Below are positions 1-64,000 of a stretch of 64,000 nt of DNA, in pieces. Location of the stretch: contig OY987248.1 of the NCBI GenBank assembly GCA_963920765.1, positions 10,946,539 to 11,010,538 of the forward strand, read 5' to 3'. Under the pieces are notes generated by a model. That model did not search any database. It saw only the letters and a program-made list of their open reading frames with translations, and was not told the DNA's origin. A program made the translations under genes and the position numbers. Each line of letters begins with the position of its first letter. The first letter of the stretch is position 1. Source of the DNA: Ulota crispa. Its lineage: Eukaryota; Streptophyta; Bryopsida; Orthotrichales; Orthotrichaceae.

Positions 1-588
1 ATGAGGAATTTTTGTTTGCGGGCAGTTCTAGATTCTCCACTCTAAAATAAACTTTGAAGTCCTTTATTTTACTCAATTTTCAATATTTTGGAAAAATAAC
101 AAAACCAAAAAATGTAGATTGTTTATGACAACATTATAACCATTGGAAGTTGCACTTTTCATTTTTATAATTAAATTCTTAACAATTTAGTGTTTTGACT
201 CATTCTCTACTTCTTTTTACTTACTATTTTTTCCCATGTGTTGTATAGTTCCAGTTGATTTGAAAATTCTCCCACACATACCTACCTTGTTCTCCTACAT
301 GGGAAAAATAAACCTCAATTTTGTGTAGAGTAATTTTTTTGAGCTAAGAGTGGTGAAAGTCTTTTGAAATTTCTGGGCAGTAGCAAAAAAACTCATTTCC
401 GCAATTCAAATGTAAATATCTCACTCATTTTTGTATAGATTGAGCTGAATTTCTTACCACGTGTACCTCTTGTAGTATATTGTAAGATCTTATGATTGAA
501 TTCTTGTAATTTTTTTTTTCTTACCATTGTACTTGCTTCCCCAAAAGTGGCAGTTTTCAGAAAAAATGGCTTGGTCTTTAGGGGTTAA
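1..588 (+). mobile_element. Right part of a TTAA-flanked piggyBac-like MITE, cut by window start
   Basis: It ends in TTTAGGGGTTAA at 577-588. Its sequence matches the right half of the element at 40183-41122 (for example the stretch starting ATGAGGA near position 1 and the ACTCTAAAATAAACTTTGAAG-like stretch near 40), so the left half lies outside the window. It has no coding potential. The class assignment rests on the TTAA flank and CCCC terminus. Confidence 0.75.
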
Positions 589-762
589 ATAACATGGTTA
601 CTGGGTGATCAAGTTGTAATTAATACTCATGTTTACAAATCTTCCAAAACTTTTAAGTAGAGTTGAAACCCAATTCGGATGTTCTTTTTCTTGATTTTGT
701 TACAAAACAAGAAAAGCCATTTTGAATTTGAAAATTAAGTTTTGAGAGTAGAAAATCAAAAG

Positions 763-1343
763 TACAAAATGTCCCTCTAAAAGCGTCCAAAAAGCTTCCT
801 TACAAAGGATTAACCGTCTTTATAGTCTTTGTGCTAGTGACACATGCATTCTAGAATCAATACATCATCTATCAAGTGTATGTAAAATCTTCAATTTTGA
901 TGTTGCCATTCAAGTATCCAAATTTCATGCAAAAAGTATCATATTTGTATATAGTTTGTGAATGCTCCCAGCTCCTCATTATTTTAGTCTTTGTGCTACT
1001 GACACATGCACTATAGAATTATTATACTATCTACCAAATCTATGCAAAATCTCTAGCTTTGATGTTGCGTTTGGGCTCCCAAATTCCATGCACAAAGTAC
1101 CATATTTGTGCATGTTGCCAACTCCTTATTATTGACTATTTATATTAGTAGCAAATATGGTACACCATATGGGCAAGGCCAAGCTTGCTAGGAGAGGAAT
1201 GCTCCCTAATTGCTTAACTTGCCCTCATGAGATCATTGAACATGACAAATGCTTTCTTAGCATTTGAAATTAGCAAATGGAAGTTTTTTATTGGTACAAG
1301 AAATGTGTCTGATTTGGAATTTTTTAGAGGGACAAAGGGAGTA
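763..1343. mobile_element. Tc1/mariner-like MITE, copy 1
   Basis: About 580 bp, starting near TAC...GTCCCTCTAAAAGCG and ending GAGGGACAAAGGGAGTA. Plant Stowaway/mariner-type elements end in CTCCCTCYGTCCC with TA flanks. The left terminus is decayed. The interior matches the copies at 1836-2422, 19061-19640 and 56412-56988 (shared blocks around GACACATGCATTCTAGAATC and GGGCAAGGCCAAGCTTG). Confidence 0.7.
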
Positions 1344-1835
1344 CTACTTATTGTTTTCACACTCCATGTACAAGTAGAAACAACTAGAGTCACTTGAATT
1401 CAATTCAATGATGTAGATATATCACATGAGCCTTTAGTTATTCCACCCAACACTAACTTGCACTAATTCAAGAAATAGGTGAATTTGTAAGGTACATTGA
1501 CAAAGTAATTCACATTAATTTAGGTTAATTCAATATAGTGTGTGCTACAATATTTATACCATCTCAAACGGTGTGACTCAAGTGGCCAAAATTCCAAGGA
1601 ATTTTAGCTAGCACATAAGTGTCAAAGAGAGTGTGTGAATTATGTTACATTAATGAAACCTTGCCACCAAGTTGCTATTTGAGGGAAGGCAAAAAACTAT
1701 AACCAAAAACCTATTTGAAAAAACAAGGACAAGATGCTTGCCACTCCTTCACACTAATTTGACATATTTCACCCAAGTTAGTGTGAAAAAATCTCACACT
1801 AATCAAGCTCTTGCACTATTTGCAAAACTTGTGTA
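1344..1835. other. AT-rich spacer, nothing recognised
   Basis: No repeat boundary, RNA gene or convincing reading frame was seen. The small open frame at 1672-1881 runs into the neighbouring MITE and is judged chance. Confidence 0.5.
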
Positions 1836-2422
1836 CTACTCCCTCTGTCCCATTATAAAGCTCCAAAAAGCTTCTCCATGAGGGATTAATTGTATTTTTA
1901 ATCATTATGCTAGTGACAAATGCATTCTAGAATCAATATACCACCTACCAAATATCTGCAAAGTCTCAAGTTTTTATGTTGTCATTTAGATACTCAAATT
2001 TCATGCAAATTATACCATATTTGTGCATAGTTTGTGAAGGTTGCCGGCTCCTCATTATTTTAGACTTTGTACTCATGACACATGCATTCTAGAATCAATA
2101 TACCATCTACCAAATGTGTGCAAAATCTCTAGCTTTGATGTTGCCATTATGGCACCAAATTCCATGCACAAAATACCATATTTGTAAATGTTGCTAGCTC
2201 CTCATTATTGATGATTTAGAGATTAATAGCAACAATGGTACGTCATATGGGCAAGGCCAAGCTTGTGAGGAAAGGAATGCTCTCTAATTGCTTAACTTAC
2301 CCCCATGAGATCATTGGATATGACAAACGCTTTTCCAACCATTGAAATTAAAAAAAGGTAGCTTTTTAGTGGGCTAAGAACCATGCCTAATTTGGAGCTT
2401 TATATTGGGACAGAGGGAGTAA
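1836..2422. mobile_element. Tc1/mariner-like MITE, copy 2 (best termini)
   Basis: Starts TACTCCCTCTGTCCCATTAT and ends GGGACAGAGGGAGTA, giving near-perfect terminal inverted repeats flanked by TA. About 587 bp, non-coding. It is the best-preserved of four copies and defines the family termini. Confidence 0.8.
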
Positions 2423-6625: not shown

Positions 6626-6630
6626 ATTTA

Positions 6631-8185: not shown

Positions 8186-8264
8186 TTAACCCCTAAATGC
8201 CTGCAGCACCAAATTCTTGTGGTTTTTACACTGCAGTTTGGTACAGCAGGCATTTACGGGCTAA
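8186..8264. mobile_element. Miniature TTAA element, 79 bp
   Basis: TTAACCCCTAAATGCCTGC on the left and GCAGGCATTTACGGGCTAA on the right. One of three elements in the window of only 74-80 bp, little more than two termini. Confidence 0.65.
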
Positions 8265-8823: not shown

Positions 8824-9249
8824 TTAACCCCTAAATCCCTGAGTGTCCCCTAGGGGGACAAATCAGATTTTGGGCAGGTAACTATGACAAAACTACTTTG
8901 TGTGATTTTTTGAAAATTTTATGGAAGATGGGGAATTCAAAGATCTGTGTGCACATCTGATTTTTTTTTATTTCATTTTGACATTTTTTGAAGAAGTAAA
9001 AAATGAATTTCTGAATTTTTTTGGAGATGGGGTTGCCCAGACTGCCCCATCTTCAAACAAATTCAAAAATTCGTTTTTTACTTCTTCAAAAAATGTCAAA
9101 ATGAAAAAATAAATAGATGTGCACACAGATTTTCAAATTCCCCATCTTCCATAAAAATTTCAAAAAATCACACAAAGTAATTTAATCATAGATACCTTCC
9201 CAAAATCTTATTTGTCCCCCTATGAGACACTCAGAGATTTAGAGGTTAA
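8824..9249. mobile_element. TTAA-flanked piggyBac-like fold-back MITE, 426 bp
   Basis: Left end TTAACCCCTAAATCCCTG, right end CAGAGATTTAGAGGTTAA. The two halves are inverted copies almost throughout, with a subterminal GTCCCCTAGGGGGAC palindrome. Its left module is shared with the larger elements at 13506 and 43768. Confidence 0.75.
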
Positions 9250-9537: not shown

Positions 9538-10465
9538 TTAACCCTTTAAAGACCATACACGTTTTCACAAAATCCACTAGAAACCAAGTCAAAAAAACTT
9601 AAATGTGTAGGTGAATCAAATATAGATTCAAGTTGAATAATTCAACTATACAAATGGGAAGAACACCTTGTTTACTATAAAGTATCAAGATTTCAACCAA
9701 ATCTACCGTTGGAGGTGAAATATTATAATAATTGAGTGACTTGTAGGTGGAAAATCTTTAGTTTTCATGCTTGTGTGATTTTGGATCTTATTGCTTCATA
9801 CAAGCTTTGCTTGAGAAGAGCCTTATATATTTTTCTAGAAAGTTGGATTCCCCACTTTTCCAATAAGACTACTTTCACACAAAATAAATATAATTAACAA
9901 TTACAAGGTGTAGCTAAGTGGACAAAAAGGGTAAAAAATCTCACTTTAGATGCTACCCTAAATGGTTCTACAAGAAATTTGATAAATGCTATGAAAAATG
10001 CAATAGACAAAAACATTTGCAAAAACAATCAAGAATTGGCCTTGAAATTAGGATGACATATTTTAAAAATGAAATGCTAACACCATTTCAAGACATCTTC
10101 AAATACTACAATTATGCTCTTACCATATAGAGAAACAATACAAGCATATTTCTTAAGCAATTTGATTTTTTAAAGATTGCACAATTGAAATGTGGCATCC
10201 TTTTTGGATGTTTGATGTATTTTGTTGTTGCTTTGATCCATCTTTGACCAAATATGGATACGTATTTGGAGGCCATGTTGTATAAACACCATTATTTATC
10301 AACTCACACACCCAATTCCATTCTTGTTTTTTGGTTGGGATGCAATTTCTTGTGATCACAAGCATTCTTCAAGAACTATTTCCAAATTGTTGAGCAATTT
10401 TGCTCTATAGGCCAAAAACCACTATGCTGAACCAAAATATGATTTGGTGGTCTCTAATTGGTTCA
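9538..10465. mobile_element. TTAA-flanked MITE, ~928 bp (inverse of 36920-37831)
   Basis: Left end TTAACCCTTTAAAGACC; right end GGTGGTCTCTAATTGGTTCA, decayed. The interior is the inverted counterpart of the element at 36920-37831 over most of its length. The two small open frames inside are not conserved as frames in the other copy. Confidence 0.7.
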
Positions 10466-10698
10466 AGTTGGGGTTATGCTCATTCTTCTCTTTTGGGGTT
10501 TGAAATATTTTTTAAAGTTTAAGCTTTGATTCAAGGCTTAATAATCTTCAAGTTACTTTAAGAAACTAAACCAATGAACATCAAAGATTGAAACCCTCTT
10601 TCAATTCAAAAAAACCTTAATTTAGCATAAAACGGCCCTAATTAAGCAAACAAGGTCTAAGTATATTTCCAACATAGATACCACATTCTAAGGATGTG

Positions 10699-12287
10699 TT
10701 AACCCCTCACCACCCATGGTATTTTTGAGTATCTCAAAATTTGCTTGAAAGTGCACAAAATGCCGGCATTTTGATCAATCTTATCAATTTTTTTTGTAGC
10801 GCAACCATACAAATTTAAAGTAGACATGTTATAGATTACATAGGAAAAGAAATCACAACTACACCACTTATGGATTGAAAGATTATAATGTTTGATCATG
10901 AGGGTGTTAAAACTACAAAAGTGATTTGATTTCTTTCAATCCTCTTTTTGCATCTCAAACCTAATATTGAGGGCACCAAAAAAAATATACAAGTATGTAA
11001 AGTATAACATGTATGACCCCAATCAATTTACGGCTTCTCAAAATCTATTCTACAATTTTTTAAATTGAATTTTTAATGGGATTATTTCTCCAAGTTCTAG
11101 TGTCTTTGAGGCTCATTTTCAAGAGCCTTTAACCCCTCAAGGACCAAGGAGCCCAATTTGGGCTTTACAAGAACTCGAGCAAGCTCTATTGACTTCATAA
11201 TTTGGAAATGTTTCATGAATTTTTTAGGATGGATGCTACTCATCATAATCTACATGTGAAGCTTTATTTCATGTCATTCCGATAAGTAATGCAAAAGTTA
11301 GAAGGTTTTTCAATTTCAATGTCAAACCGAGTAGCAAAAAACATATTCTAATTTTTTATTTTTTTATTTATAGAATTGTATAGATTGATACCTACTCAAA
11401 AAAAAAAAAAAAAAAAAAAAAAAATGAATTACCCAATTCCAAATAATGAGGTAAGAGTTCAAAGGAGTTTTATTTTGCGGGCAATGAAGGTAGGAAGAGG
11501 GTAGACTAAACATATAAAGTTATCTTTAACTCTTAATTTTGAAAATTTTCAAATGAAAATGAAAATTAAAGTTATTAATTGTCTGTTAGAGCATTCTCAC
11601 CATTGGGATTAAGAATTTTCAAATTCTTCCAAAACTTATTAGCATATTAGTTATATCTTTCATTCATCAAGACCTTTCACTTTACAATTTTTGTAAAAAT
11701 GAATCCATTTTCTTTTTGGGTTTAGGGTTTTTATATATACTTTCAACCCATTTTCCAACATATTGCCAAAATTGCACAAGAAAGACAACATATGTGTCTT
11801 TCTCTAAAAAGTGTGAAAAACAAAACTTCACCTTCTAGAAGGACTAGAAAAGCCTACATTTTGAAGTTTAGGCACATTGATCTTGCAATTGGTGGGGATG
11901 TTCATTCTAAAATATTGGGATAATGTACTTGTGCAAGTCAACCAAAGGATCCTATGGTTGAATTTGTTAAAAAGTAAGTTTCAATGAAGATGTTGATCTT
12001 GCTTTGGGGATTGGTATTTTGAAGCAGTTTTGGGCCTCAAAACAAGAAAGAATTTTAGGGGTCAACACTAGAAAGTGAAGATTTAAAATGGACACCCTTG
12101 CACAAAATCTTGAATAGACAAATCACTTTAATTCATTTACAAAATCACACTCCTAATGCTAAAACTAAACTTCAATAAGAATTTAAAAATAATAATAATC
12201 ACTAAAAAAATCTTAAAAAAAGGTTGCACATCTTTGAATAAAATTCAGAGGGTCCCAATTCGGGCCCCTTGGGCGCTGAGGGGTTAA
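10699..12287. mobile_element. TTAA-flanked MITE carrying a nested TTAA element
   Basis: Starts TTAACCCCTCACCACCCATG and ends GGGCGCTGAGGGGTTAA. Without the nested element it is about 650 bp and is the inverse of the element at 34376-35015, sharing a subterminal GGGCCC...GGGCCC palindrome. Confidence 0.75.
11129..12065. mobile_element. Nested TTAA element, ~937 bp
   Basis: Left junction CTTTAACCCCTCAAGGACC, right junction TTTTAGGGGTCAACACTAG. The uninterrupted relative at 34600-34620 (and 28625-28640) reads through as TAGTGTTGA(A/G)AGCTC, so a T(C/T)AA tetranucleotide is duplicated on either side. It contains a run of more than 20 A at 11400. Confidence 0.7.
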
Positions 12288-12295: not shown

Positions 12296-12545
12296 TTAAT
12301 CCTTGAGCACCCAAGAGACATTATAATGTCTTTCCAAAAGATGGGTCAACGCAAGTTTGACTGAGGTAATCTCATTGCTCCTTTGATGAAACCACCTCCA
12401 ATCAAGCCCATCACCATAGAGATACTTCTTGCTAACAATTTGTATGGTTTCAATCTTGTACATTGTATTTTTCAGTTCATAAGTACATTTTGACTGCAAG
12501 AAGGTCTGTATAAACTGGATTTTGAGCTGGGCGCTCAGGGGTTAA
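12296..12545. mobile_element. TTAA-flanked MITE, 250 bp
   Basis: Left end TTAATCCTTGAGCACCCAAG, right end GGGCGCTCAGGGGTTAA. It lies 8 bp from the preceding element; the junction TTAATACCCGTATTAA is nearly palindromic. Confidence 0.6.
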
Positions 12546-13505: not shown

Positions 13506-14441
13506 TTAACCCCTAAATCCCTGAGTGTCCCCTCGGGGGACAAATGGGATTTTGGGCAGGTACCCACAACCTCAATTCTTGTCCTGATTTTTTGAAACTT
13601 TTTTTGAAGATAGAAAAACACATTAGCTTTTGGGGAATATAATTCTTATTCCAATCAATGCCCAAAAGCAAAAGTTTTGCCTAGATAAGCAAAAATTTAT
13701 GCAAATTGGGCAGCAAAAAAAAATTTACAAAAATTGGAATTGGATTTTATTTATGTTTTTTTCCTCATAGGTTATAGTTTTGTCTACATCTGAAGCTTTG
13801 ATCCATTCCATTTGGACTAGTTACAAGAAAGTTATGGACAATCTTGTTTTTTAGGCAACTCAAGCATCTTCTTGAAAAAATAACTTATAAACTTCATTTT
13901 TGAATGCAAGTTTAACATTTTTTCAAAAAAAATTGTTGGAAAGGGTGAAGTTTGCTTGCTAGAACAATCTCACCATTGGGGTTATTGAGTATAATTCCAT
14001 TGCAAGGTTATTAACGGTTTAAGTTTTTGTTCAATCTCATACCTTCTTCTACCTAATGTTTTTTTTAAGAATGAAAATTAAGTATTTTTTATTTTGATTT
14101 TTTTCCGAAGATTCTCCAGTCAATTTCCCACCTTAAAAAAAGAAACCTCAAAACTCTTTGGTGCAAAAAGTTTAAGTTAAAAAAAGTTCAAAGTCAAATA
14201 GTCTAATCATGCAAGGTGCAAAAAAGTCTATTTTTTACACTTTGAATGCAAATATCTTGCAATCTGTGCGGTCAAAGTTTTTGAATTTTTGTTTCCACAT
14301 TCTTACACTAGTCTAGTACAAGATCTTACGGTTAGATATGCAAAAAAACCAATTTTCAAAAAAAAAAATACTCTTTACAATAGAAATGGCAATTTTGAGT
14401 GTCTTTTGACAAAATAAAGGTCCCAAGGATTTAGGGGTTAA
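13506..14441. mobile_element. TTAA-flanked piggyBac-like MITE, 936 bp
   Basis: Left end TTAACCCCTAAATCCCTG, followed by the palindrome GTCCCCTCGGGGGAC. Right end CCCAAGGATTTAGGGGTTAA. Close copies are at 43768-44687 (same orientation) and 25830-26760 (inverted). Confidence 0.8.
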
Positions 14442-14673: not shown

Positions 14674-15641
14674 TTAACCCATAAAGGACCAAGGGTGTTC
14701 TTTGAGAAAAAAATCTCAGAAACTGCCAACTTTTAGTGCATTGCCCAAAATTGAAAACAAAAACTTTTGTCTTTTCAACTTCAATCATACAAATATATGC
14801 AAAAAACAAATAATTTAATGTGCTAAAAAATTATCAGCCCATTCGACAACGCGGATTGTAAGATTATAACGTTTGAAGTGAGAGTAACAACTTTTTTCCA
14901 TTCCTGCAAAACAAGGTCAGCATACTTTGAGCTCTTCTAGAATAATTTTTTGCTCTACACAAAAATGAGCTTTTTGACCATTCACAAGTATATGATGTTA
15001 GGTTCACTCATGAAAATTTTCAAGTGCAAATATAGAATTTGGCTTATTCTAAATCACCTTGCAATGCAAGGAGGTTTGTTAAATTGGCAATACATTAGTC
15101 ATTCTTTCATTGTTTCTTGTGCAATAAGGAAGTCTTTTATTTGAAACCTGAATGGTGAAAAGTTAGAGACAAACGTTTGGAATATGTGAAGAAAGGTTTC
15201 AAGAGCTTTGGATTTATAAATTGAAAAATAATAGGGCCTGAAGTTAGAGGAATATTTTTCTTCTTGAAACTGCCTGAACATAGTTAACCAAGTTTGACTC
15301 CCTTCAACATGTGATGTGAGAGCTTAATTTTTATTTTATTTTCTTGACAGTTGTAAACCATGTTTTTTTGGTTCCGTACTTGCTAAATTTCAAAAGTTAA
15401 TGAGAGTTTTAGCATAGATTCTCCAAAGATGCTTGAATTGCCCAAGTTGAGTAATTTCTTTTGGGCAATATAATTTTAGATTGAGCATCCAATTGAGGAA
15501 AAAAATTGCATTTCCACTTGGAGGTACATATTTGCACCTTGTGTAACAATTTTGAGAACATCTAATAAAAATTGCCTCCATATGACCCTACCAAAGTTCT
15601 CAAGTAGTTGTTGAACAACCACTTGGTCCTTTAGGGGTTAA
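14674..15641. mobile_element. TTAA-flanked piggyBac-like MITE, 968 bp
   Basis: TTAACCCATAAAGGACCAAG on the left, CTTGGTCCTTTAGGGGTTAA on the right: a terminal inverted repeat of about 16 bp inside perfect TTAA flanks. The small frames within show no homology I recognise. Confidence 0.8.
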
Positions 15642-16537: not shown

Positions 16538-17267
16538 TTAACCCCTAAAGCACCAACTGTCCCTCTGGGGACAAATGGGATTTGGGCATGTACCTATGGC
16601 TAAACTATTTTACGTGATTTTTTGAAATTTTTATGGAAGATGAGGAATCCAAAGATCTACGTGAGCATCTAATTTTTTCTTCATTTTGACATTTATTGAA
16701 GAAGTTAAAAATGAATTTCTAGAAACAAGTTTAGATTGGGCAACCCAAAAAATTCTTAAAAATTGCATTAAATAAAAATAAAAATATGAAATAGGTTCTT
16801 TAGACTTATATATATGTGGGGAGTTTTGAATCATTCAATTTTGATTGATGGGATGAAAGTTATGAGAAGTTTTAGTTTGCAGGTAGGGTACAAGTAGGTG
16901 TGGAGTCTCTCAAAATCACACCTACCCGCAAACAAAAACTTCTCATGAATTTCATCTCATTAATGAAAATTGAATGATTCAAAGCTCCCCACCTATATAT
17001 AAGTCTAAAGAACCGATTTCATATTGTTATTATTTTAAAACAATTTTTAAGAATTTTTGGGCTGCCCGATCTAGACTTTTTCCCAGAAATTCATTTTTAA
17101 CTTCTTTAATAAATGTTAGAATGAAGAAAAAATTAGATGCCCACATAGATTTTTGAATATCACATCTTTCATAAAAATTTCAAAAAATCACGCAAATTAA
17201 TTTAGCCATAAATACATGCCCAAAATCCCATTTGCCCCAAAAAGGGGCTTGGTTCGTTAGGGGTTAA
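16538..17267. mobile_element. TTAA-flanked fold-back MITE, 730 bp
   Basis: TTAACCCCTAAAGCACCAAC to GTTCGTTAGGGGTTAA. The left and right halves are inverted copies that meet near 16900, so mirror-image open frames appear on both strands at 16631-16834 and 16974-17156. Subterminal GTCCCTCTGGGGAC palindrome. Confidence 0.8.
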
Positions 17268-17878: not shown

Positions 17879-18112
17879 TTAACCCTTAAAGGACCATAGG
17901 GCATAGTATATACGTTGTTATATAATTGGTATTTGCTACCAGTAAGAAGTTTTAATTTGGGATCTCAAGCAGTCCACTAGAACCGCTTTGATTTATTCTC
18001 CAACTTCTTTGTTGATCTCAAATGCAATAAAGGTGTGAATTTATTCCAAATACAAGAAGAATACCTCGTATTCTATTGGTTGCAGAGGCATGTTGTGTCC
18101 TATAGGGGTTAA
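17879..18112. mobile_element. TTAA-flanked MITE, 234 bp
   Basis: TTAACCCTTAAAGGACCATAG to GTCCTATAGGGGTTAA. The inverted relative is the outer element at 32245-33274. This intact terminus shows the second, internal TTAA into which the inner element at 32252 inserted in that relative. Confidence 0.8.
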
Positions 18113-18180
18113 GAAGAAAAGGTAGGAGATCAATTCAAGCCATTAAAATAAATGTCAACTTCAATTTATATTGTTGGTAA

Positions 18181-19719: not shown

Positions 19720-20653
19720 TTAACCTCTAAATGCACAAGGGTGGTTTTCTTGTTTGTGGAAGGTAGTTTTGAAGTTTTTGAATTGTCCTCTATGATCATT
19801 ATTAATTATCAAAATAAAATTGTAAACATAGGATCTTGAACTTCAAGGCTTTTCAATGGTGTTACCAAAACAGACTTCTAGAAAGGTCACACAAATTTTA
19901 GATATTTGTGATGGAATGTGGTTAATTATGGATTTTTTTTGGTTTTACTCTAGCTTCTCAAAACCTGTAATGCTTGAATGGCAACTTTTGTGTACAAAAT
20001 TGGGAAACAACCACTTATGATGATTTAGCATTTGTTATTGTTACTTCAAAACTATTGACCCCCCTTTCAAATCCATTTCCAAATTCATTTCCAAATCCAT
20101 GACCACAATTTCATAAATGAGCTTGCAATGCAATTGTCAAAAAGCTACCACCTAATACAAAGAAATTTCTCAACTTCAATTATTAACCAAAAATCATTAT
20201 AAATGAAAGAAAATTCAACAAATGAAAGAATTCTAATATTTACTACAAGAACATTCCATGTGAAATTAGCACACAAACACATGTAGATTTTGTTAGATGA
20301 TAAAATTTAGTAAAAGGACCCTCATTGCCCAAAGGAGTGCCCAAGGGAAATTTTCACTTTATTCTCAACTTGATGCTTATCTTTTCAATGTGGCAGCTTG
20401 TCATAGGCTCTGCAATTACACTATTCATCACACTATTTGGTGCGCAAGAGGTATCCTTGTAGTTTAGCTTCCACCAAAAACAATTGAATAAGGTCTATAA
20501 GACACTAATATTTAATGTTGAAGCCAACTTTAGCCTGCAATTTTTCCAAAAAATCAACCTTAAAACAATCAAATCTTTGCCTTCAATAGGATTTCAAGTT
20601 TCTTGAAGTTTCTCAAACACCAGAATTTGGTGTCTTGGGCATTTAGGGATTAC
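19720..20653. mobile_element. TTAA-flanked MITE, 934 bp
   Basis: TTAACCTCTAAATGCACAAG to CTTGGGCATTTAGGGATTAC. The right flank TTAC is shared with the next element. Open frames at 19511-19799 cross the boundary of the upstream MITE and are not genes. Confidence 0.65.
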
Positions 20654-21580
20654 CTTCAAAAGGCCCAAGTGTCCCCTTGGGGGGGGAAATGGATTTTGGG
20701 CATGTACCTATAGCTAACCTAATTTGTGTGATTTTTTCAAACTTTTGTTGAAGGTGGGGAATTCAAAGACACGTGTGGACATCTAATTTTCTTCATTCCA
20801 ACATTCAACAAAGAAGTTATGCAAGAATTTTCTAAATTAGGCAAGGGGGGGCATTTTGGGCAAGACTTGTCCTTTATAAGTGTGCTAACTCCAAAAAGGG
20901 CTAGTCCTCAACCACAAGGTGTGGCCACTTGGGCAAAAGCGAGTGGATTGGAAGGAGTCTGTCTTGGGGGACTCCCAAGTCCCAACCTTCCATTCCTTTT
21001 GCCCTTAGTAAAAATTGGTACTTTAACCTTTTGAGCAGTTCAAGTATTTGTTTTTTAATTAAGTTATATTCCAAATTGTAGTGAGCCAGGATTCTTTGGT
21101 TTTCACTATTTGAATGAGTGTAATTCAAATTATTGAGTTTCACATGAATCCTCCAATTTTATCTAGTGTATTTGCAAATTCCATGATCCTATGATGTTCA
21201 AAGAATTTTTGAAGTATGTTGCACACCTCCAAACCATTTGAAAATTCTTCCACACATACCTAACTTGGTCTTTCACATGGAGCAATTAAACCTCAACGTT
21301 GTGTCAAGCAATTTTTTTGTTATAAGAATGGTCAAAGGCTTTTGAAATTTTTGGGCAAGACGGAAGGAACTTGTTTCTTCACGTGAGATGTCAATATCTC
21401 ACTCCTCTCCATTTGAAATGAGCTGTTTTGTTTCCCCACAAATACTTCCCATAGTCTAAGCAAGATCCTATAGTTGGATATCTTGGGAAAAACTTTTTTC
21501 CTACATTTTTACTCATTCTTCTAAAAGGGGCAATTTTCAGTGACTTTTGGAGAAAAAAGGGCTTGGGCCGTTACGGTTTG
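20650..21580. mobile_element. TTAA-type MITE with decayed ends, ~931 bp
   Basis: Starts TTACCTTCAAAAGGCCCAAG, followed by the GTCCCCTTGGGGG subterminal palindrome; ends GCTTGGGCCGTTACGGTTTG. The right module (GGCAATTTTCAGTGACTTTT) is shared with 1-588 and 40183-41122. Confidence 0.6.
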
Positions 21581-21652: not shown

Positions 21653-21972
21653 TAAGGTAGGAACACCCATAAGTGTCAGTGTCCCCAATAACCGTCACCT
21701 CTAAAATTTTGGAAAATTTATAGAAGTAAATATATGTAATTACAAGGATGTACAACATGTGAACATGAAACCTTTGAGCTGGTTATGAGTACAATGGTAC
21801 TTTGCTCTTCAAAAATTCACAACTTATTCTCACAGTATCCAAATGATATTTTTAAAAATGCAAACTCATTAATTTTCTGTTGCTAACAAGATCCTATAAC
21901 TTGCTAGATGTTTATTAATAGTCATCATGTTCAAAACCCTTAGACTAAAACTTATGGGTGTTCCTACCTTAA
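21653..21972. mobile_element. AAGGTAGG-family MITE, copy 2
   Basis: TAAGGTAGGAACACCCATAAG to CTTATGGGTGTTCCTACCTTA. Nearly identical to copy 1. Its last bases form the TTAA used by the next element. Confidence 0.8.
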
Positions 21973-22629
21973 CCCCTAAATGCCCCCAAGGACATAATAT
22001 GGCCTCTCTTGGTTTAAATGAGCCTTTTTGTAAGACATGATCTAATTTTTTGACTTTCTTATCAACTACAATTAGCAAGGTACTCAAGTGGTCCATGCAA
22101 GTGGAGTAATGGCAAGTCAAATCAAATGTTTTACAAAGTACCTAGGGTGCCTTGATTGTATGGAATACAATACAAGGTGAGGTTTAGGGTAGCACTTAGG
22201 TATTACAATTTGTCAAATTCCCTTGTAAGCTTCCTTGCAATGGGTTTTGTTGAAGCCCTAGAGCTTAGCATCAAAGAAGTACAATCTTCAATAATTTGCA
22301 TATGTGTGCATTCACATCTAATCTTGCTACTCACAAAATTGAGATGAATCAAGGGCTTATAGAATTTTGTAAAAATCAATAAACAACAGCTACGTGCCAA
22401 AAAATGAGATTTTGCCATCACATGTTGTTTGATCAAATGTTATAATCTCCCATTTCCCACGGTCAATTATTCCCAAAATTTGCAAACCATTTTCTAAGTA
22501 GGTGTTCCACTGTTTTCAATGGTCACTTTTTGTGGATCATGTGATTAGATTAGCTGAGGTATGCACCAAAGTTGTAGGTATCCGAAAAGCCCGATTTTGG
22601 TGAAAATGGGCTGGGCGCTCAGGGGTTAG
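21969..22629. mobile_element. TTAA-flanked MITE, 661 bp
   Basis: TTAACCCCTAAATGCCCCC to GGGCGCTCAGGGGTTAG. The left TTAA overlaps the terminus of the preceding MITE, so it inserted at that boundary. Confidence 0.65.
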
Positions 22630-24547: not shown

Positions 24548-25443
24548 TTAACCCCTAAAGGACCAAAGTCCCCTTGAGGGATTTTTGGGATTTTGGGTAA
24601 ACTCATGTGATCTCAATTTTTGACATGATTTTTTGAAACTTTTTATGAGTGTGTAGGAATGTATAAGGCAAAAAATCATGTAATTATGTCACATAGTTCA
24701 CAAGTTATGGGTTTTTTTTGGCCAAAAGTAGTTTGAGGGGCAGCTTGGGCAAGGGAGAAAATATTGACTTTGGAGGGGAGGGAGCAAGGAGGGAGCAAGG
24801 AGGGGTTGCCACATGTTGCTCTCGTGGTCCCCATTACTTCATAATTTCCCCCTTTCATTTCCAATTAGGAGGTCAGATTGGGCTTTGGGAGCTTCTAAAT
24901 TTTAGAGATTTTGAGTTCTTTAACTTCTTTTTTTTTGGCATTTGAAATACATGTTTATCTTCAAACAAACCAATTGGATTTTCCATATCTAAAAACATGT
25001 GGTGGGAAACTTCACTCAAAAATGTCATAGTGCATTTGCAAAATTTGTCATCTAGTGGCATTGCAATATTTTTTAGGATTTGTTCCATGTCTTTAATTGC
25101 CTTGAAAATTCGTGTACAAAGGTCTAACTTGATTACCTATAAAATCAAATTACAAATTCACTGTCAGTAGTGCAAAAAAATCAGCAAATGGCAGTCAAAG
25201 CCTTTTGAAATTTCAGGTACCATGGAAAAAACAGAAACTTTTCCCTTCAAATGCTCATAACTTTCAATTGGTGCTGTCAGACGTCACAAATTCTTTACCA
25301 CTTCTTGTTCCACAAGTGTATTACAAGATCCTATGGTTAAATTTTGAAGAACAATAATTTGTTGAAAATTTTGATGAATGCAAAAATAAGGACAATTTTG
25401 AGTGGTTTTTAGTAGAAAATGGCCTTGGTAGCTTAGGGGTTAA
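24548..25443. mobile_element. TTAA-flanked piggyBac-like MITE, 896 bp
   Basis: TTAACCCCTAAAGGACCAAAG to CTTGGTAGCTTAGGGGTTAA. The right module resembles the element at 40183. Internal small frames on opposite strands (24676-25088) are unsupported. Confidence 0.8.
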
Positions 25444-25829: not shown

Positions 25830-26760
25830 TGAACCCCTAAAGGACCATGGCCTTTATTTTGTCAAAAGACACTCAAAACTGCCACCTCTATGGCAAAGAG
25901 TAAAAAAGTTTGAAAATTGGGCATTTTGCATATCGTACCGTAGGATCTTGTGTTAAACTATTATAAGAATGTGTCATACAAAACTCAAGAACTTTGACCG
26001 CACAAATTGGAAGATGTTTGCATTTAAAGTGTAAAAAATAAACTTTTTTTGCACCTTGCCTTACTAGATTATTTGACTTTGAACATTTTTAACTTAGAAT
26101 TTTTGCACCACAGAGTTTGGAATTCTATTTTTGCATGGTGGGAAGTTGAGTTGGTAATCTTGGGAAAAATAAAATAACAAAAAATAATGAATTTTCATTC
26201 TTTAGAAAAAACATTAGGCAAAAGAAGGTATGAGATTGAACAAAAACTTAAATTGCTAATAACCCTGCCATGGAATTGAAACCCAATAATCCTAGTGGTG
26301 AGATTGTTTTAGAAAGCAAACTTCACCCTCTCCAACAATTTCTTTTGAAAAAATGCTAAACCTGCATTCAAAACTGAAGTTTATAAGTTATTTTTTCAAG
26401 AAGATGCTTGAGTTGCCTGAAAAACAAGATTGTCCATAACTTTCTTGTCACTAGTCCAAATGGAATGAATCAAAGCTTCAAATGTAAACAAAGATATAGT
26501 CTATAAGAATAACAAATTAATTTTTTTTTTCAAGTTTTTATAAGAATTTTTTTTGCTACCCCTAGTCTCCAAATTTGTGCTTATTTGGACATAAATTTTG
26601 TTCCTTGGCATCAATTGGAATAAATATTATATTCCTCAAAAGCTAATGTATTTTTCTAACTTCAAAAAAAATTCAAAAAATTAAAACAAAAATTGAGACC
26701 ATAGGTACTTGCCCAAAATCCCATTTGTCCCCATGGAGACAATGATTCTTTAGGGTTTAA
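25830..26760. mobile_element. TTAA-type MITE, 931 bp, inverse of 13506-14441
   Basis: TGAACCCCTAAAGGACCATG to GATTCTTTAGGGTTTAA, with decayed left flank TGAA and right TTAA. The interior is the inverted copy of the elements at 13506 and 43768. Confidence 0.75.
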
Positions 26761-36923: not shown

Positions 36924-37831
36924 CCCTTTAGAGACCACCAAACCATATTTTGGTTCAGAAGAGTGGTTTTTGGCATATAGAGTAAAATTGCTCAACATTT
37001 TGGAAATTGGACTTGAAGATCGCTTGTGATCACAAGAATTTTGCATCCAACCAAAAAAACAACAATGGAATTGGGTATGTGAGTTTATAAATAATGGTGT
37101 TTATACGGCATGGTCACAAAATACATATCCATATTTGGTCAAAGATGGATCAAAGCAACAACACAATACATCAAACATCCAAGAAGAGTGCCAAATTCCA
37201 ATTATGTTGTCCTAAAAAAATTCATATTGCTCATGAAATACGCTAGTATTGGTTTCCTATACGGTAGTAGTATAATTGTAGTATTTGAAGATGTCTTGAA
37301 ATGGTGCTATCATTCATCTTTAAAAAAACTTGTCCTACATCTAAGGCCAATTCTTTACTATTTTCATAGATTGGATTTTCCATAGCATTTATCAAGTTTC
37401 TTGTAAAACTATTTTTGGGTAGCAATGAAAGTGGGATTTTTGACCCTTTTTGTCCACTTAGCTACACCTTGTGAGTGTTATTTTTATCCATTTTGTGTGA
37501 AACTAGTCTTATTGGAAAGGTGGGAAACCTAGCTTTCTAGAAATATAAGGCTCTTCTTAAGCAAAACTTGTATGAAGCACTAAGATCCAAAACCACACAA
37601 GCATGAAAACTAGAGAATTCCTGCCTACAACTCACTCAATCATTATAATATTTCACCTTCAACAATAAATCTAATTGAGATTTTGATGCTTTATAGTAAA
37701 CAAGGTCTACTTCTCATTTGTACGGTTGGATTATTGAAATTGGTCCATAATTGATTCAAACGCACATCCAAGTTTACTACCCTGATTTATAATGAATTTT
37801 GTGAAAATGTGTTTGGTCTTTAAAGGGTTAA
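36920..37831. mobile_element. TTAA-flanked MITE, 912 bp
   Basis: TTAACCCTTTAGAGACCACC to GGTCTTTAAAGGGTTAA, the inverse of 9538-10465. It starts in the TTAA that ends its neighbour. Confidence 0.8.
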
Positions 37832-38254: not shown

Positions 38255-39222
38255 TTAATCCCTCATCGCCTAAGGTTCAAAGAGGTCTAAAGTATTTTTG
38301 TTTTTCAAGCGTTGTGTGTTTACATGCCATTGGAGTATGAAAATCTCAGCCATACAATCTTGTATTGTTTATGTTGCAAATAATGTGAATCAAATTTGGG
38401 GTCATTTGACCGATTGAAAAATTATGATGTTTTAATATTGAAAAAAGATGTTGAAATTTTCCCAAAAACACATTTGGAGGTGAAATTTGATTTCTAAACC
38501 TACTCAAATGAATAAAATTAAAATGTAAAGTGATTTAAACCAATATACAAACACATTGGTAAAAAAAATCTCAATCAATATACTCATTTTGTTTGTAAAA
38601 TTGTTTTGAAATGTCAAAAAACAATGAAAAAGTAGCAAATAATCACATCTATGGTTAAACCTCCCTTTACAAAAATGATTCTCATTCACTCATAACTTCT
38701 TGGATTCATATGAAATTTTTAGCCATAGCAACTAGTCTAGTATGCACAACTTTTCCAATCACAAAATTTGAAAACAAACCAAGTTTCTATGAAGAAGTTA
38801 AAAGCCACCAAAGTTCACTGTAATGCAAAAATGCGTGAATTTTGTACTTTGAGTTGCTCCCAAACATTCAAGAAAACTTGGATTGACATGAAAAATTTAC
38901 CACAATTTTTAGACTTAATGAGGGGGAAAAAAATTATCGGAAAAAAATGTTTGATGAAAAAAGATAGAAACCTCCAAAGTTGCACCCATCACAATGTAGT
39001 GTGGTGAAATCAAATTGACCATGTGAACTTTGAATGGCTTTCACAAATTGAATATGTCTTAGATTGATTTAAATATTCTAACTTAGAAACTAGACTAGTA
39101 TGTGCAACTTTGCCAAAAAAATTATTGGATTTGGATAATAAATGCAAAAGTTACAGCACTTCAAGTTGGAGTGATGGAATGCTAAAGGACACTTTTTGTT
39201 CCCTTAGGCAATGAGGGGTTAA
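38255..39222. mobile_element. TTAA-flanked MITE, 968 bp
   Basis: TTAATCCCTCATCGCCTAAG to CTTAGGCAATGAGGGGTTAA, a terminal inverted repeat of about 16 bp. The interior is unlike the other copies. Confidence 0.8.
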
Positions 39223-40182: not shown

Positions 40183-41122
40183 TTAACCCCTAAAGGACTG
40201 TTGTCCTTTTGGGGGACAAGTGGGAGTTCGGGCATGTATCTTTGGATAAGCTACTTTGTGTGATTTTCTGAAACTTTTATTGAAGGTGGGGAATTCAAAG
40301 ATCTACGCGGGCATCTAATTTTTTTTTCTCATTTTGACAATTATTGAAGAAGTTATGCAAGAATTTATAAAAAGTTGGGGAGGACTGCCCGCCCGGGCAG
40401 CCCAAAAACTTCTTAAATAAAAAAATAAAAATAAAACTAAAATTTGAAATTGGTTCTTTAGATTTTTTTTTATAGGTGCGAAGCTTTGAATCATTCAATT
40501 TCAATCAATGAGATGACAGTTATGAGGAGTTTTTGTTTGTGGGCAATTATGAATTCTCTACTCTAAAATAAACTTTGAAGTCCTTTATTTTACTCAATTT
40601 TTATTATTTTGGAAAAACAATCAAACCAAATAAAGTAGATTGTTTATCACAACATTTTGACCATTAGGGTTTGCAATTTTCATTTTAATAATTAAATTCT
40701 TAACAATTTAGTGATTTGATTCATTCTCTACTTCTTTTTACTTACTGATTTTTCCCATGTGTTGTGTAGTTCTAACTGATTTGAATATTCTCCCACACTT
40801 AGCTAATTTGATCTCCTACATGGGAAAAATAAAGCACAAAGTTGCGTAGAGAAATTATTTTCATGTAAGAATGGTCAAAGGCTTCTAAAATTTTGGGGTA
40901 GCATGAAAAAAACTTTTCTTTTCACTTTAGATGTAAATATCTTACTCATGTCCATTTGGAATGACCTAATTTTTTTCCACAAGTACCTAATCCTGTCTAG
41001 GGCAAGATCCTACGATTGGATTTCCCAAATTTTCAAAAAAAATAACCTTCTTACTAACCCCCCAAAAGTGGCAGTTTTGAGTGATTTTCACTGAAAAAAT
41101 GGCTCAATCCTTTAGGGGTTAA
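40183..41122. mobile_element. TTAA-flanked piggyBac-like MITE, 940 bp, two-module
   Basis: TTAACCCCTAAAGGACTG to CAATCCTTTAGGGGTTAA. The left ~330 bp match the fold-back elements at 16538 and 42842. The right ~600 bp match 1-588, so it joins two modules found separately elsewhere. Confidence 0.8.
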
Positions 41123-42841
41123 AGATTAGTATAAAAAGGGTTAGCATAAAAGGAAGTATGCTAAGCATGCCAATTTGATTCAACATGACAGTTCAAAAAA
41201 CCTTGAATCCTTGCAAACTTGCAATGTTCAAGGAGATTTTAGCTTCCTCAATAAATATTTTACATTTCTCATTTTAATTTAAACTTTTAGTGCATGGATA
41301 TTGTCTGTACACATATTCTTATATACTTATTCTACAGTTAGATTTTCTGAAAACCAAACCAGTATTTATTTGATTTTAAAATTTTCAACTGGTTTTCATT
41401 TACACTCTGTTCAATTGACTCTTTACTATCTTTTGGATCTCCCCGCTCACTGGTCCCTTGTTAGGAATGGTTGAACTCCAGCAATTCCTAGTGAAATTAG
41501 GTATTTATTTTTTCTGTTGCTCGTAATGAAACTAGTGCTTTACTGCTTCTTCATGGGGCAAAACATGGCAACATTGTTGTACCAAACTACCAATGCTGAA
41601 GTCTATTAATAGCACAGAGGCCATGAATTCAACGATCTCGGTTACTACAACTTCATCCCCAAAGGCCATTTGGAGGGGTTGATAAATGAAAATAGACCAT
41701 CTCAGTGCTGTACATGGACTTACAAGGCTTGGACTACTATTGCTACTTATGATATTCTAACTAGCCTCTCTGTAGCCTTTTTCTTGCTTGAGATGATTGA
41801 GGGGGAGCAACTTAATAGCAATATTCATTGAAATGTAAGACCACATAAGAATTCATTCCTGAGTTCCCTTCACTGCAAAGTTTCAGTGAGCGACCAAGTA
41901 AACGTCCTTGTATGCAATGGAGTCATATACAGGCACTATGCTGCTTCCTTTACAGTCCTGCCATCTCCACAATGAAGAGGAAAAATACAATCAGCAAAAG
42001 ACACACCATCATCCACATAAACAAGGGGACGTGAGAGCATCTCCATTGGTTTGCTTAGAATCAGACACGCCAAATGTGTTTTAGAAGGACTTGTTGTGGC
42101 AAAAATGGGCGGGCAGGGCTTGCAATATCCATTGGTTCCTTGCAAAATTCATTACAAGGGAACAATGTCAATTTGGACATTTTTTGTGATTTTGGACACA
42201 TTTAGTCAATTTGGACAATTTTTCTTGAAGTGACTAAATTAGTGTACCAAGTGATGGAAACATGAGTCGAGGATAAGAGTGCCACAATCCTAAGGGGTGG
42301 TGTTGTGGCTTGCTACCTAGGCATATGGGGCTTGCAACAACTCAACTTACTATTGGAGCCACTTCAAGGTTGTCACGTAACTCACCCTTGTTGAAATTCC
42401 AACATTCCACTAATCCACGCCTTCACTACCAAAGTATGGGATCCAAGTCATCATTATTTTGTGAATTTAAATGTCTTGATTTGAACATTTTGAGCAAAAT
42501 CATGTTGTTTAGGACATATTTGTGTTGATTAGGATCACTTGATTTGAACCCATTTTCTATGCTAGTGCTTGTTCCCTACTTTGACCCAACATTACATTTG
42601 CGTAAATATTTCAACCTCAAAATGGTTTGCAAAACAAGCACAATAAGAAAACTTGAAGTCTTGATAGCTCACCGTCCCTAAACATCTCTTTGACACGGCC
42701 GCTCAAAATGATGGTTTATGCATACCAGTGGTGGAGATCTGAGATGGGACCAGGAGCTTGAAACACAAGATTTGTTGATTCGGGAAAAACACTCCACCAA
42801 AACAGATTTTGGAATATTAAATTTAGCATTTGTGATAATGG
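41123..42841. other. 1.7 kb spacer with an unidentified open stretch
   Basis: A + strand stretch at 41613-41831 stays open for 72 codons (begins HRGHEFNDLGYYNFIPKGH) but starts after a stop and has no ATG near its start; I do not recognise it. GAGCATCTCCATTGG at 42032 and the inverse of GAGCATCTCCACCGG at about 44937-44952 may be the two ends of a 2.9 kb transposon with TGA flanks, which would enclose the elements at 42842 and 43768. Confidence 0.3.
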
Positions 42842-43568
42842 TTTGCCTCTAAAGGACTGCTGTCCCTTCAAGGGACAAATGGGATTTTGGGCATGTATCT
42901 ATGGCTACATTGCTTTGCGTGATTTTTTGAAACTTTTATTGAAGGTGAGGAATTCAAAAATCTACGTGGGAATGTAATTTTTTCTTCATTTTGACATTTA
43001 TTGAAGAAGTTAAAAATGAATAACTGAAAAACAGGGGACTATCAGGCAACCAAAAAATTCTTTAAAAGTTTCATTTTTTTCAAATAAAAATCTGAAATAG
43101 GTTCTTTAGACTTATGTAGACGTGGGGAGCTTTGAATCATTCAATTTTGATAGATGAGATGAAAGTTATGATAAGTTTTAGTTTGCAGGTAGGTGGGGTT
43201 TCTCTCAAAATCATACTTGCCCACGACTGAAAATATCTCATAACTTTAGTCTCATCTATCAAAATTGAATGATTCAAAGCTCCCCACGTCTACATAAGTC
43301 TAAAGAACCTATTTCAGATTTTTATTTGAAAAAAATGAAACTTTTAAAGAATTTTTTGGTTGCCTGATAGTCCCCTGTTTTTCAGTTATTCATTTTTAAC
43401 TTCTTCAATAAATGTCAAAATGAAGAAAAAATTACATTCCCACGTAGATCTTTGAATTCCTCACCTTCAATAAAAGTTTCAAAAAATTACGCAAAGCAGT
43501 TTAGCCATAGGTACATGCCCAAAATTCCATTTGTCTCCCAAAAGGGCCCTTGATGCTTTAGGGATTAA
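42842..43568. mobile_element. TTAA-type fold-back MITE, 727 bp, near-perfect palindrome
   Basis: The left end is TTTGCCTCTAAAGGACTGC, right end GATGCTTTAGGGATTAA. The arms (about 42890-43200 and 43225-43520) are nearly identical in inverse, including CCTATTTCAGATTTTTATTTG, implying a recent origin. Same group as 16538-17267. Confidence 0.8.
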
Positions 43569-43767
43569 AGTGAAAATTTTGATAATTCCTTCAAGATTTT
43601 TTGTCATTGGTGTAAGGCTTAGAAGAAATCATCATGAAATTCACTCTAAATCACCTAAAAACTCTAAAGAATGAAAAATTCAAAAGTCCCAAAACCAAGA
43701 TTCCTGAATTAACAAATACAATAGAACTCCTCTAAACTGATATGGTTAGGACCCCAACTAGATTAGT

Positions 43768-44687
43768 TTAACCCCTAAATCCCTGAGTGTCCCCTTGAGG
43801 GACAAATGAGATTTTGGGCAGGTACCTCCTATAGCCTCAATTTTTTTCCTTATTTTTTAAACTTTTTTTGAAGATAGGAAAACACATTAGCTTCTAGGGA
43901 ATATAAATTCTATTCCAATCTATGCTCAAAAGCAAAAGTTTTGCCTAGATAAGCACAAACTTATGGAGATTGGCAGCAATGAAAATTCACAAAAACTTAA
44001 ATTTTTTTTGTTGTTCTCATAGGTTATAGTTGTGTCTATGTTTGAAGCTTTGATTCATTTCATTTGGACTGGTTATGAGAAAGTTATGGACAATCTTGTT
44101 TTTTGGGCAATTCAAGCATCTTTTTGAAAAATAACTTATAAACTTCATTTTTGAATGCAAGTTTAACATTTTTTCAAAAAAAATGTTGGAGAGGGTGAAG
44201 TTTGCTTTCTAGAACAATCTCACCATTGGGATTATTGTGTTTCAATTCCATTGTATGGTTACTAACAATTTAAGTTTTTGTTCAATTTCACCTTCTTCCA
44301 CCCGATGTTTTTCTTAAGAATGAAATTTAAGTATTAATTGTTTTGATTTTTTTGCAAAGATTCTCAACTCAATTCCCCACCATAGAAAAATAAACCTCAA
44401 AACTCTATGGTGCAAAAAATTTAAGTTAAAAAAGTTCAAAGTTAAATAATCTAATCATGCAAGATATAAAAATGTTTGTTTTTTACACTTTAAACGCAAA
44501 TATCTTACAATGTAGGTGGTCAAAGTTTTTGAATTTTTTTTCCTACATTCTCATACTAGTCTAATACAAGATCCTATGGCTAGATATGAAAAAAGACCAA
44601 TTTTCAAACCTTTTTACTCTTTGCAATAGAAATGGCAATTTTGAGTGTTTTTTGACAAAATAAAAGCCCCAAGGATTAAGGGGATAA
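43768..44687. mobile_element. TTAA-type MITE, 920 bp
   Basis: TTAACCCCTAAATCCCTGAG, then GTCCCCTTGAGGGAC; ends CCAAGGATTAAGGGGATAA. Close copy of 13506-14441. Confidence 0.8.
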
Positions 44688-56226: not shown

Positions 56227-56300
56227 TTAACCCCAGTAAATGCCTGAGGCACCGGGGTAAAAATCACCAGAATCTGGTGCCTCAAGCATTTACGGGTTAA
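56227..56300. mobile_element. Miniature TTAA element, 74 bp
   Basis: TTAACCCCAGTAAATGCCTG to CAAGCATTTACGGGTTAA; almost the whole element is a hairpin (GGCACCGG... against ...TCTGGTGCC). Confidence 0.7.
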
Positions 56301-57161: not shown

Positions 57162-57526
57162 TTAACCCCTAAACGTCAAGGAGGACAAAAAACGTCCACA
57201 AGCTCTAAAAAAAAATTCTATGCTATAGAAAAAAAGTCATTTTTCATCTAATTTTGTTTCAGAAGTGATTATAAACATATGGGCCATCATGGAAGGCAAA
57301 AATTATCTCATATGATGCATTCATATTTTTAGGCAACCCAAATTGTGATAGGGTTCAAAAACTCAATGTTAGATCCCAAGTTGCCCTTCTTGCAATTTTC
57401 ATGAGGGCACCATGCATTATTGATTTCTACAACTTTAGAAAATCATATTACAATTGTTAAGCAATGAACAATGTAAGTATTGTAGTTAGGCTAATCACAA
57501 TGACCAACCTAGCATTTAAGGGTTAA
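57162..57526. mobile_element. TTAA element, 365 bp
   Basis: TTAACCCCTAAACGTCAAGG to CAACCTAGCATTTAAGGGTTAA. Clear flanks, short terminal repeats. Confidence 0.7.
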
Positions 57527-63139: not shown

Positions 63140-63386
63140 CGCTACGCTACTGGAATTGTAGTACGATATGACTAAGTTAAGCTTAGGTGGATGGAATCCG
63201 GTTGCTAGCCTGGGAGAAAAAGAGAATCGATCAGGATTGATCAGGCTGCCGGTGACGCCTGCGACAAATCCTTGGGAGCTGGGCGGAAAAAAGAGCGCGA
63301 CGGAGCTGATGAAACTGGTTTCGGGGAAAGAAGGGCGCTTTGGAGCTCCGGTCCACCTTGGCAAGTTTGGAGTGCTGGGCACCCTC

Positions 63387-63406
63387 CACGTGGCGTGTGA
63401 CACGTG
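63387..63406 (-). promoter_or_regulatory. Twin G-box (CACGTG) motifs in the reductase promoter
   Basis: CACGTG occurs at 63387-63392 and again at 63401-63406, about 250-265 bp upstream of the start codon. The surroundings contain the ABRE cores ACGTGGC (+ strand, first box) and ACGTGTC (- strand, second box). In plants these bind bZIP or bHLH factors in light or abscisic-acid responses; regulation here is inferred. The whole promoter must fit between 63139 and the TTAA element at 63533 or extend into the repeat. Confidence 0.6.
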
Positions 63407-63532
63407 TGTCGCCAGGTGGTGGGCGGGTCAACCCCCCGCTGTCTCTTTCCCTTTGAAGCCGAGGCAGTAGGGCTGTAGGGGTAGGCACACCTTCTCCGAG
63501 AATGAAACTTGAATGAAACTTCTATGAGGAGT

Positions 63533-64000
63533 TTATCCCCTAAATGCCCAAGGCACCCAATTTGGGTGTTTATAAAACTTTGTAGATGAATAATACCTTA
63601 TCAAATCACTATTTTTAGTAATTTTTTTAAAATAGGAGTTGGTTATGAAGTCGATTTTCAACATCAAAAATCTAATTTTGAAAATGAATGTTGATGAGTA
63701 TTCTACTCAAGATTTTGTACAAGGGTGTCCACTGCAATCTTGAGTTTTTTTAGTGATGGAAGATCTTGAAAATCAACCTCAAATACACTAGAGCTTAGAG
63801 AATAATCCACATTAGAAACCCATTTAGAAAAAACATAGGAGTAGATTTTGAAAACCGTTAGTTGATTATAGTTAGACATGTAATGATCTTAAACCTCATA
63901 TTTTTTTGGTGCCCAAATTTTTAGGTTTGATATATGAAATGAGGATTGGAAGACTTCAAGTCTCTTTTGCAATTTTAACACCCTCATGTTCAAACATTAT
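63533..64000. mobile_element. Left part of a TTAA-type MITE, cut by window end
   Basis: Starts TTATCCCCTAAATGCCCAAG and continues like 28406-29214 (blocks CAAGATTTTGTACAAGGGTG and CACTAGAGCTTAGAG). The right end lies beyond the window. Confidence 0.7.

Follow-up and report, generated by a model that had tools for sequence, protein, structure and literature searches.

What kind of transposon has filled a stretch of the genome of the moss Ulota crispa with short repeats flanked by TTAA, and what enzyme would have moved them? The stretch, hereafter the window, is the 64,000-nucleotide segment C7:10946539-11010538 of a 274.8-Mb assembly in 157 contigs; C numbers denote contigs, and L numbers denote stretches fetched from the same assembly. 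The piggyBac superfamily, known chiefly from animals, fungi and protists and widely used as a tool, is characterized by the duplication of a TTAA target and by termini beginning with CCY. An earlier note on the window had proposed a piggyBac-like family of about 32 elements, 74 to ~970 bp long and covering ~30% of the sequence. These figures proved right within a few elements, and the assignment is upheld by the ends, by the 4-bp TTAA target and by the transposase domain DDE_Tnp_1_7 found within like-ended elements. The swarm very probably consists of non-autonomous miniature inverted-repeat transposable elements (MITEs) of the piggyBac superfamily, mobilized in trans by the genome's own piggyBac transposases.

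The ends were located with a weight matrix trained on 41 visible ends of the window, picked by eye as TTAACC-like, among which C occupies position 1 in all 41 and position 2 in 40, and C or T occupies position 3 in all 41. At a score of at least 12 the window contains 54 ends, compared to 1.2 per shuffled window, the training ends being from this same window. As an independent check, five 8-kb regions of the genome selected by round coordinates yielded 9 such ends in 40 kb, and their shuffles (n = 5) yielded 0, 1, 0, 0 and 0. With 0.84 ends per kb against 0.225 in the sampled regions, the window is ~3.75-fold richer and is therefore not typical of the genome. The terminus of the window set reads TTAA-CCCCTAAA(G/T)G(A/C)CCAAG, with close variants, and TTAACCCC-type ends represent the end class of its MITEs.

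From these ends 28 candidate paired elements were drawn up, of which 22 had both ends clear enough for a test of the flanks; the other six (9538-10463, 11129-12065, 23414-24228, 32252-33043, 33040-33274 and 42841-43569) have a decayed, shared or unclear end, and one of them, 23414-24228, was dropped altogether. The final list (Table 1), in which several decayed copies were recognized by similarity, holds 30 elements, namely 29 outer ones, two of them cut by the window edges, and one nested. Together they occupy 19,708 bp (30.8%) of the window and range from 74 to 968 bp, except for a 1,589-bp outer element enlarged by its nested copy; the left end of 32252-33043 and the right end of 20650-21562 are approximate. 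Among the open frames that reach 70 aa and overlap the elements by at least 100 bp, 25 in all, none matches Pfam, and the window has no Rfam match at the gathering threshold. Being short, non-coding, bounded by inverted ends and present in high copy number, the elements are MITEs. None of those listed lies in 44,688-56,226, the stretch that holds the longest gene of the window, where the matrix detected a left end without a partner (55,786) and a weak match lacking TTAA (49,387). A count of inverted pairs at any 4-mer gave more pairs for AATT, CATG, ATAT and TGCA than for TTAA, and is uninformative because the interiors of fold-back elements swamp the signal.

Because TTAA is palindromic, the ends alone cannot separate target from terminus, and the flanks and insertion sites have to decide. 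Exact TTAA is present on both sides in 16 of the 22 tested elements and is one base off on one side in the other 6. Beyond it, the outer flanks of these elements agree at only 0.20-0.36 per base (1-5 and 8-10 bases), with no perfect 3-, 8- or 9-bp repeat in any of the 22. The nested element 11129-12065 interrupts a member of the 640-bp family, and its target is a 4-bp T(T/C)AA: three uninterrupted copies of that family read TCAA once, whereas the filled copy has TTAA before the element and TCAA after it. In two abutting pairs of elements one 4-bp site serves both neighbors, namely TTAA in one pair (36920-36923) and TTAC in the other (20650-20653). The earlier note had also called for empty TTAA sites, and one was recovered in a paralogous region. 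Among 22 joined-flank queries (65 rows, 40 of 1484 candidates scored), that of 34376-35015 matched across the whole junction, at C10:3514439, where the stretch (L052) is 83% identical to the window over 883 columns on the left and 91% over 67 on the right. It has a single TCAA where the window reads TTAA-element-TTAA, and nothing else is duplicated; a separate relative of 34376-35015 (79% over 405 columns) lies ~0.9 kb further on. The target site duplication is the 4-bp TTAA of piggyBac.

The assembly also contains many, mostly broken, genes for a transposase of this superfamily. DDE_Tnp_1_7 (PF13843) has at least 120 matching rows, a few of them pieces of one gene, with a best E value of 1.3e-73 (116 of 528 candidates scored); it has no match in 14 control genomes, a weak control in which the one named member is a bacterium. 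Eight transposase loci were read with long flanks (five 10-kb regions and three smaller ones); L039, L041 and L042 were picked after their downstream end was visible, the other five by score or open frame. When the uncut 10-kb regions of L039 (on C3) and L041 (on C10) are compared, the sole match is 1963-6990 against 1897-6923, at 90.5% identity over 5.03 kb; it starts at the left terminus and stops one base past the right one, with the transposase inside and unrelated DNA outside. Both ends are likewise present in L042 (1896-6997) and L045 (195-5850), so that the search recommended in the earlier note, for a DDE_Tnp_1_7 transposase within the same ends, succeeded at four loci. An inward-facing end (score of at least 15) lies 1364-2009 bp 3' of the domain in all eight. 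It is present in all five loci picked blind to it, each with a random-position probability of 0.113, which to the fifth power amounts to ~2e-5. The 3' end of L040 matches the 20-mer TTAACCCCTAAAKGMCCAAG exactly, its last 365 bp resemble the window element 24548-25443 (66%), and shorter stretches of its 3' part match window positions 554-588 and 41065-41122.

The protein itself is of the piggyBac type. In all nine transposase fragments scanned, DDE_Tnp_1_7 is the sole Pfam match, and a profile compared with solved structures retrieved piggyBat (9c0f, E 3.5e-49), 6x67 (E 8.4e-45) and 6x68, the latter two, deposited as 'Transposase', being presumably piggyBac. D212 and D297 are conserved in 9 of 9 aligned fragments, and the third aspartate (GVDxxDQ) in four of the five fragments that reach that block, the exception being L043 with GVNVGDQ; we take these residues to be the DDD triad of insect piggyBac. 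As in piggyBac and piggyBat, which have the same domain, the TTAA duplication and the CCC/CCT termini are thus accompanied by a DDD-type transposase with VD[EK], DN[FY]F and GVDxxDQ blocks and, in L040, a Cys-rich tail. Unlike the known systems, the host is a land plant, the 30 best loci comprise 11 transposase lineages and most copies are broken. The relatives of the transposase include one insect name, Rhamnusium bicolor. Among the mostly broken copies, L044 and L045 retain long open frames (563 and 472 aa); domestication is not claimed for them, an element end being still found downstream of both. The 3' part of L040 contains a long tetranucleotide tract (5973-6596), whose frames read repeated HTYI or CMYV.

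Several observations weigh against this interpretation. In-frame stops occur in 110 of the 120 DDE_Tnp_1_7 rows, which weakens the case for a working enzyme. A 5' end was accepted in only four of the eight loci (L039, L041, L042 and L045). The 5' matches in L040 and L043 belong to neighboring MITEs: the left-end candidate of L040, at 1517, is part of a 14674-type MITE, none was accepted, and the left boundary of both loci in the comparison with MITEs is arbitrary. When the 30 top loci were taken with 1.5 kb of flank, an end of at least 15 appeared in four (L009, L014, L018 and L030), which is weak alone, and the first three are the same loci as L039, L042 and L041. Apart from the ends, little similarity links the MITEs to the five transposase loci against which they were aligned, of which only L040 matched window elements, through its 3' part. 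The other 21 joined-flank queries gave no junction-spanning match among the 40 of 1484 candidates scored, and both one of the target copies of the nested case and the single copy of the paralogous empty site read TCAA. Finally, PIF/Harbinger transposase rows (150) are about as numerous as those of piggyBac (120).

The following course of events would account for the swarm. Elements of ~5.0-5.7 kb located at other sites of the genome would supply a DDD-type piggyBac transposase that recognizes the TTAA-CCCC(T)... ends in trans and cuts the MITE out; the MITE would then be reinserted at another TTAA, thereby duplicating the target. Mobilization in trans is inferred from the superfamily; excision would presumably be traceless and restore TTAA, as is typical of piggyBac, and amplification may have proceeded through repair or replication. 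Most of this mobility seems to belong to the past.

The earlier note had supposed that one transposase moved several subfamilies, a view that the diversity of the transposases does not support. Depending on the distance cutoff, the 30 best-scoring loci fall into 23 (30%), 11 (50%) or 7 (60%) groups, with identities of 27-81%; at least one stop lies within the domain in 29 of the 30, and frame breaks may inflate the distances. End variants TCATCGCC/TCATTGCC are common to L039, L041 and window element 38255-39222, variant ACCGCCCAAGGG to L042 and 34376-35015, and variant GAGCGCCCAG to L046 and 12296-12545. Because the variants run parallel in MITEs and transposase elements, the different MITE subfamilies were probably moved by several autonomous lineages that are related but differ slightly in their ends. 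That a single transposase moved them all would fit the strong common core CCCCTAAA of most ends, but is rather improbable in view of the 11 lineages and of end variants that follow different transposase elements.

As for the superfamily, the elements might be Tourist-like MITEs of PIF/Harbinger, whose 3-bp TTA/TAA target resembles TTAA and whose transposases are abundant in the same genome (at least 150 matches, 278 candidates). Such an origin is very unlikely, as most tested elements (16 of 22) have a whole, symmetric TTAA at either side, the empty and nested sites behave as a 4-bp unit, and the like-ended full-size elements carry DDE_Tnp_1_7, the sole Pfam match of the nine fragments scanned; a 3-bp target combined with DDE_Tnp_4 within the same ends was not found in the like-ended elements, the flanks of the Harbinger loci not being part of the comparison. 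Tourist and Stowaway MITEs are similarly short, AT-rich and often fold-back, and differ by their 3-bp TTA/TAA or 2-bp TA targets and by other ends. Since the PIF/Harbinger rows are about equal in number, piggyBac is not the sole rich superfamily of this genome, which has at least two. Besides, many rows of the PIF/Harbinger transposase (PF13359; 150 matches, 278 candidates) are devoid of stops, and this superfamily is therefore apparently better preserved here than piggyBac, though its domain is shorter.

Other superfamilies that target TTAA, such as Kolobok or Sola3, share both the length and the sequence of the target. They are hardly credible here, since the termini begin with CCC or CCT whereas those of Kolobok and Sola3 differ, and all nine scanned fragments of the transposase found between such ends are DDE_Tnp_1_7. 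Equally implausible is a TTAA belonging to the inverted repeat with a longer true duplication, as in hAT or Mutator, an idea that the palindromic TTAA leaves open at the ends alone and that founders on the lack of agreement between outer flanks and on the empty site, where nothing but the single TCAA corresponds to the duplication.

The piggyBac-type ends extend far beyond the window. The exact terminus CCCCTAAAKGMCCAAG occurs 8661 times in the genome (control, 0) and the exact 20-mer TTAACCCCTAAAKGMCCAAG 7291 times (3654 + 3637; reversed control, 0), so that TTAA precedes 84% of the exact termini, in line with the TTAA flanks that the earlier note expected genome-wide; viral contigs have no match to the terminus. 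The 20-mer count badly underestimates the family, because the window itself contains only one exact copy. A very rough extrapolation from the five sampled regions (40 kb, with 6 of the 9 ends in one region) gives ~60,000 ends or ~30,000 elements. One 654-bp subfamily has 4037 first-look candidates, of which 40 were scored; 36 of the 41 rows, the query included, extend from first to last base, with identities of 79-92% when the query is set aside. Since the scored copies are presumably the best ones, divergence across the entire subfamily is probably greater; a comparison of two copies of the 654-bp type gave 76% identity. For window subfamilies longer than 900 bp, full-length copies that are 80-88% identical lie either on other contigs or at other places in the window. 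Overall, the compared MITE copies are ~76-92% identical, a divergence that suggests that their amplification is not recent. It is likely, though less firmly so than the superfamily assignment, that piggyBac radiated here into at least a dozen lineages of transposase, and that its MITEs number in the tens of thousands, several percent of the genome being made up in this way. If so, piggyBac would be a major rather than a trace superfamily of DNA transposons in a land plant, with autonomous and MITE families diverging in step through their end sequences.

In the portions of the literature available to us, plant piggyBac appears in lists or in trace amounts. PiggyBac is named among seven superfamilies of angiosperm MITEs in a 2023 review (PMC10004981), among the superfamilies present in all groups studied in a 2015 survey (PMC4438587), and in a list of plant superfamilies in a 2024 review (PMC10794571). 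The assembly table of Ceratopteris has a PiggyBac row reading 1230 and 122,417, taken as copies and bases (PMC6890710). Six terminal inverted repeat superfamilies are recognized in plants by a 2022 review of the transposable elements of land plants, in which the word piggyBac does not occur (PMC9033089). Among the titles and abstract beginnings of the matches listed from the open-licence literature, none describes piggyBac elements in a moss, and the single moss genome paper matched contains the word 'piggybacking'. Here, 31% of the window consists of such MITEs, and full-size elements with a transposase and matching ends accompany them in the genome. The window therefore offers a well-supported case of a known superfamily, whose abundance is, as far as the literature consulted tells, unusual for a land plant. 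These elements make native plant piggyBac ends and transposases available for tests and provide a case for studying the vertical or horizontal origin of piggyBac in plants, and the abutting and nested copies, together with the paralogous empty site, render target choice and MITE origin directly testable. They also call for caution, as plant repeat catalogues that lack piggyBac would leave such MITEs unclassified.

Table 1. Elements with piggyBac-type ends in the window, with their left/right flanking 4-mers; the last row is a fragment outside the count of 30.
Feature	Position	Strand	Flanks	Remarks
MITE cut by window start	1..588			right end TTAA-CCCCTAAAGACC; copy of 40183-41122, 78% identical to 40522-41123
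79-bp MITE	8186..8264		TTAA/CTAA	79-bp relatives L007:2647-2725, L039:1721-1799
426-bp fold-back MITE	8824..9249		TTAA/TTAA	
~929-bp MITE	9538..10466			right end decayed; copy of 36920-37831, 82.7% over 931 columns
640-bp-type MITE with nested MITE	10699..12287		TTAA/TTAA	87-91% to 34374-35015 in two pieces
Nested 937-bp MITE	11129..12065		TTAA/TCAA	TCAA once in three uninterrupted copies
250-bp MITE	12296..12545		TTAA/TTAA	right end CCCCTGAGCGCCCAG; end type as transposase locus L046
936-bp MITE	13506..14441		TTAA/TTAA	85.9% to 43768-44687, 82.6% to 25830-26760
968-bp MITE	14674..15641		TTAA/TTAA	full-length copies L001 (82%), L003 (81%) on C1
730-bp fold-back MITE	16538..17267		TTAA/TTAA	self-inverted 83.7%
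234-bp MITE	17879..18112		TTAA/TTAA	copy at 33057-33274
934-bp MITE	19720..20653		TTAA/TTAC	right 4 bp common to next element
~913-bp decayed MITE, 40183 type	20650..21562			right boundary approximate
661-bp MITE	21969..22629		TTAA/TTAG	
896-bp MITE	24548..25443		TTAA/TTAA	right 363 bp resemble 3' part of transposase element L040, 66% over 381 columns, E 1.3e-13
931-bp MITE	25830..26760		TGAA/TTAA	
808-bp MITE	28406..29213		TTAA/TTTA	foreign 152-bp insert at 28655-28806
150-bp MITE	29688..29837		TTAA/TTAA	
792-bp candidate MITE	32252..33043			right end clear, left uncertain
235-bp MITE	33040..33274			abuts 32252-33043; left end partly lost; 76.6% to 17879-18088
640-bp MITE	34376..35015		TTAA/TTAA	paralogous empty site on C10
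655-bp MITE	36269..36923		TTAA/TTAA	
912-bp MITE	36920..37831			one TTAA (36920-36923) common with 36269-36923; copies L042:917-1829, L043:829-1737
968-bp MITE	38255..39222		TTAA/TTAA	ends TCCCTCATCGCC, CCCCTCATTGCC as in transposase elements L039, L041
940-bp MITE	40183..41122		TTAA/TTAA	83% full-length copy L002:581-1520
729-bp fold-back MITE	42841..43569			both ends decayed; self-inverted 92% over 662 columns
920-bp MITE	43768..44687		TTAA/ATAA	
74-bp MITE	56227..56300		TTAA/TTAA	
365-bp MITE	57162..57526		TTAA/TTAA	
MITE cut by window end	63533..64000			left end TTAT-CCCCTAAATGCCCAAGG; 63526-63786 74.8% to 28400-28658
Decayed 3'-part fragment of full-size (transposase-type) piggyBac element	30627..31191	-		72.8% over 573 columns to L040 locus, E 6e-81

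Other repeats share the window with the piggyBac MITEs. Four copies of ~585 bp (764-1346, 1834-2424, 19059-19644 and 56408-56991), with ends TACTCCCTCTGTCC...GGGAGTA and an internal repeat of ~162 bp, are of a type that we take to be Stowaway-like, and more are found in L040 and L049. Short fold-back elements with CACTA-like ends occur at 18180-18288, 28020-28151 and 28655-28806, the last one within the piggyBac MITE 28406-29213; they presumably resemble the CACTA MITEs of plants. A further repeat family, with ends GGTAGGAACA and additional copies on other contigs, is found at 13046-13363, at 21655-21971, where its right end abuts the MITE 21969-22629, and at 35261-35953, this third copy having ~376 bp extra (35440-35815). 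A cluster of long palindromes of 885, 1161, ~964 and 950 bp extends over 2786-7584; they are related to one another, do not have TTAA ends and have arms up to 98% complementary, and could be a source of long hairpin RNA.

The longest gene of the window (46411-51891), within the 11.5-kb stretch that is free of listed piggyBac MITEs, has a GC content of 55%, compared to 36% for the window. It encodes a VARLMGL motif and a DUF4378 domain, which we take to be plant-specific and which agree with the plant host supposed in the earlier note. Its relatives include Sphagnum proteins at 32-39% identity, and the best-scoring ones reach 57%.

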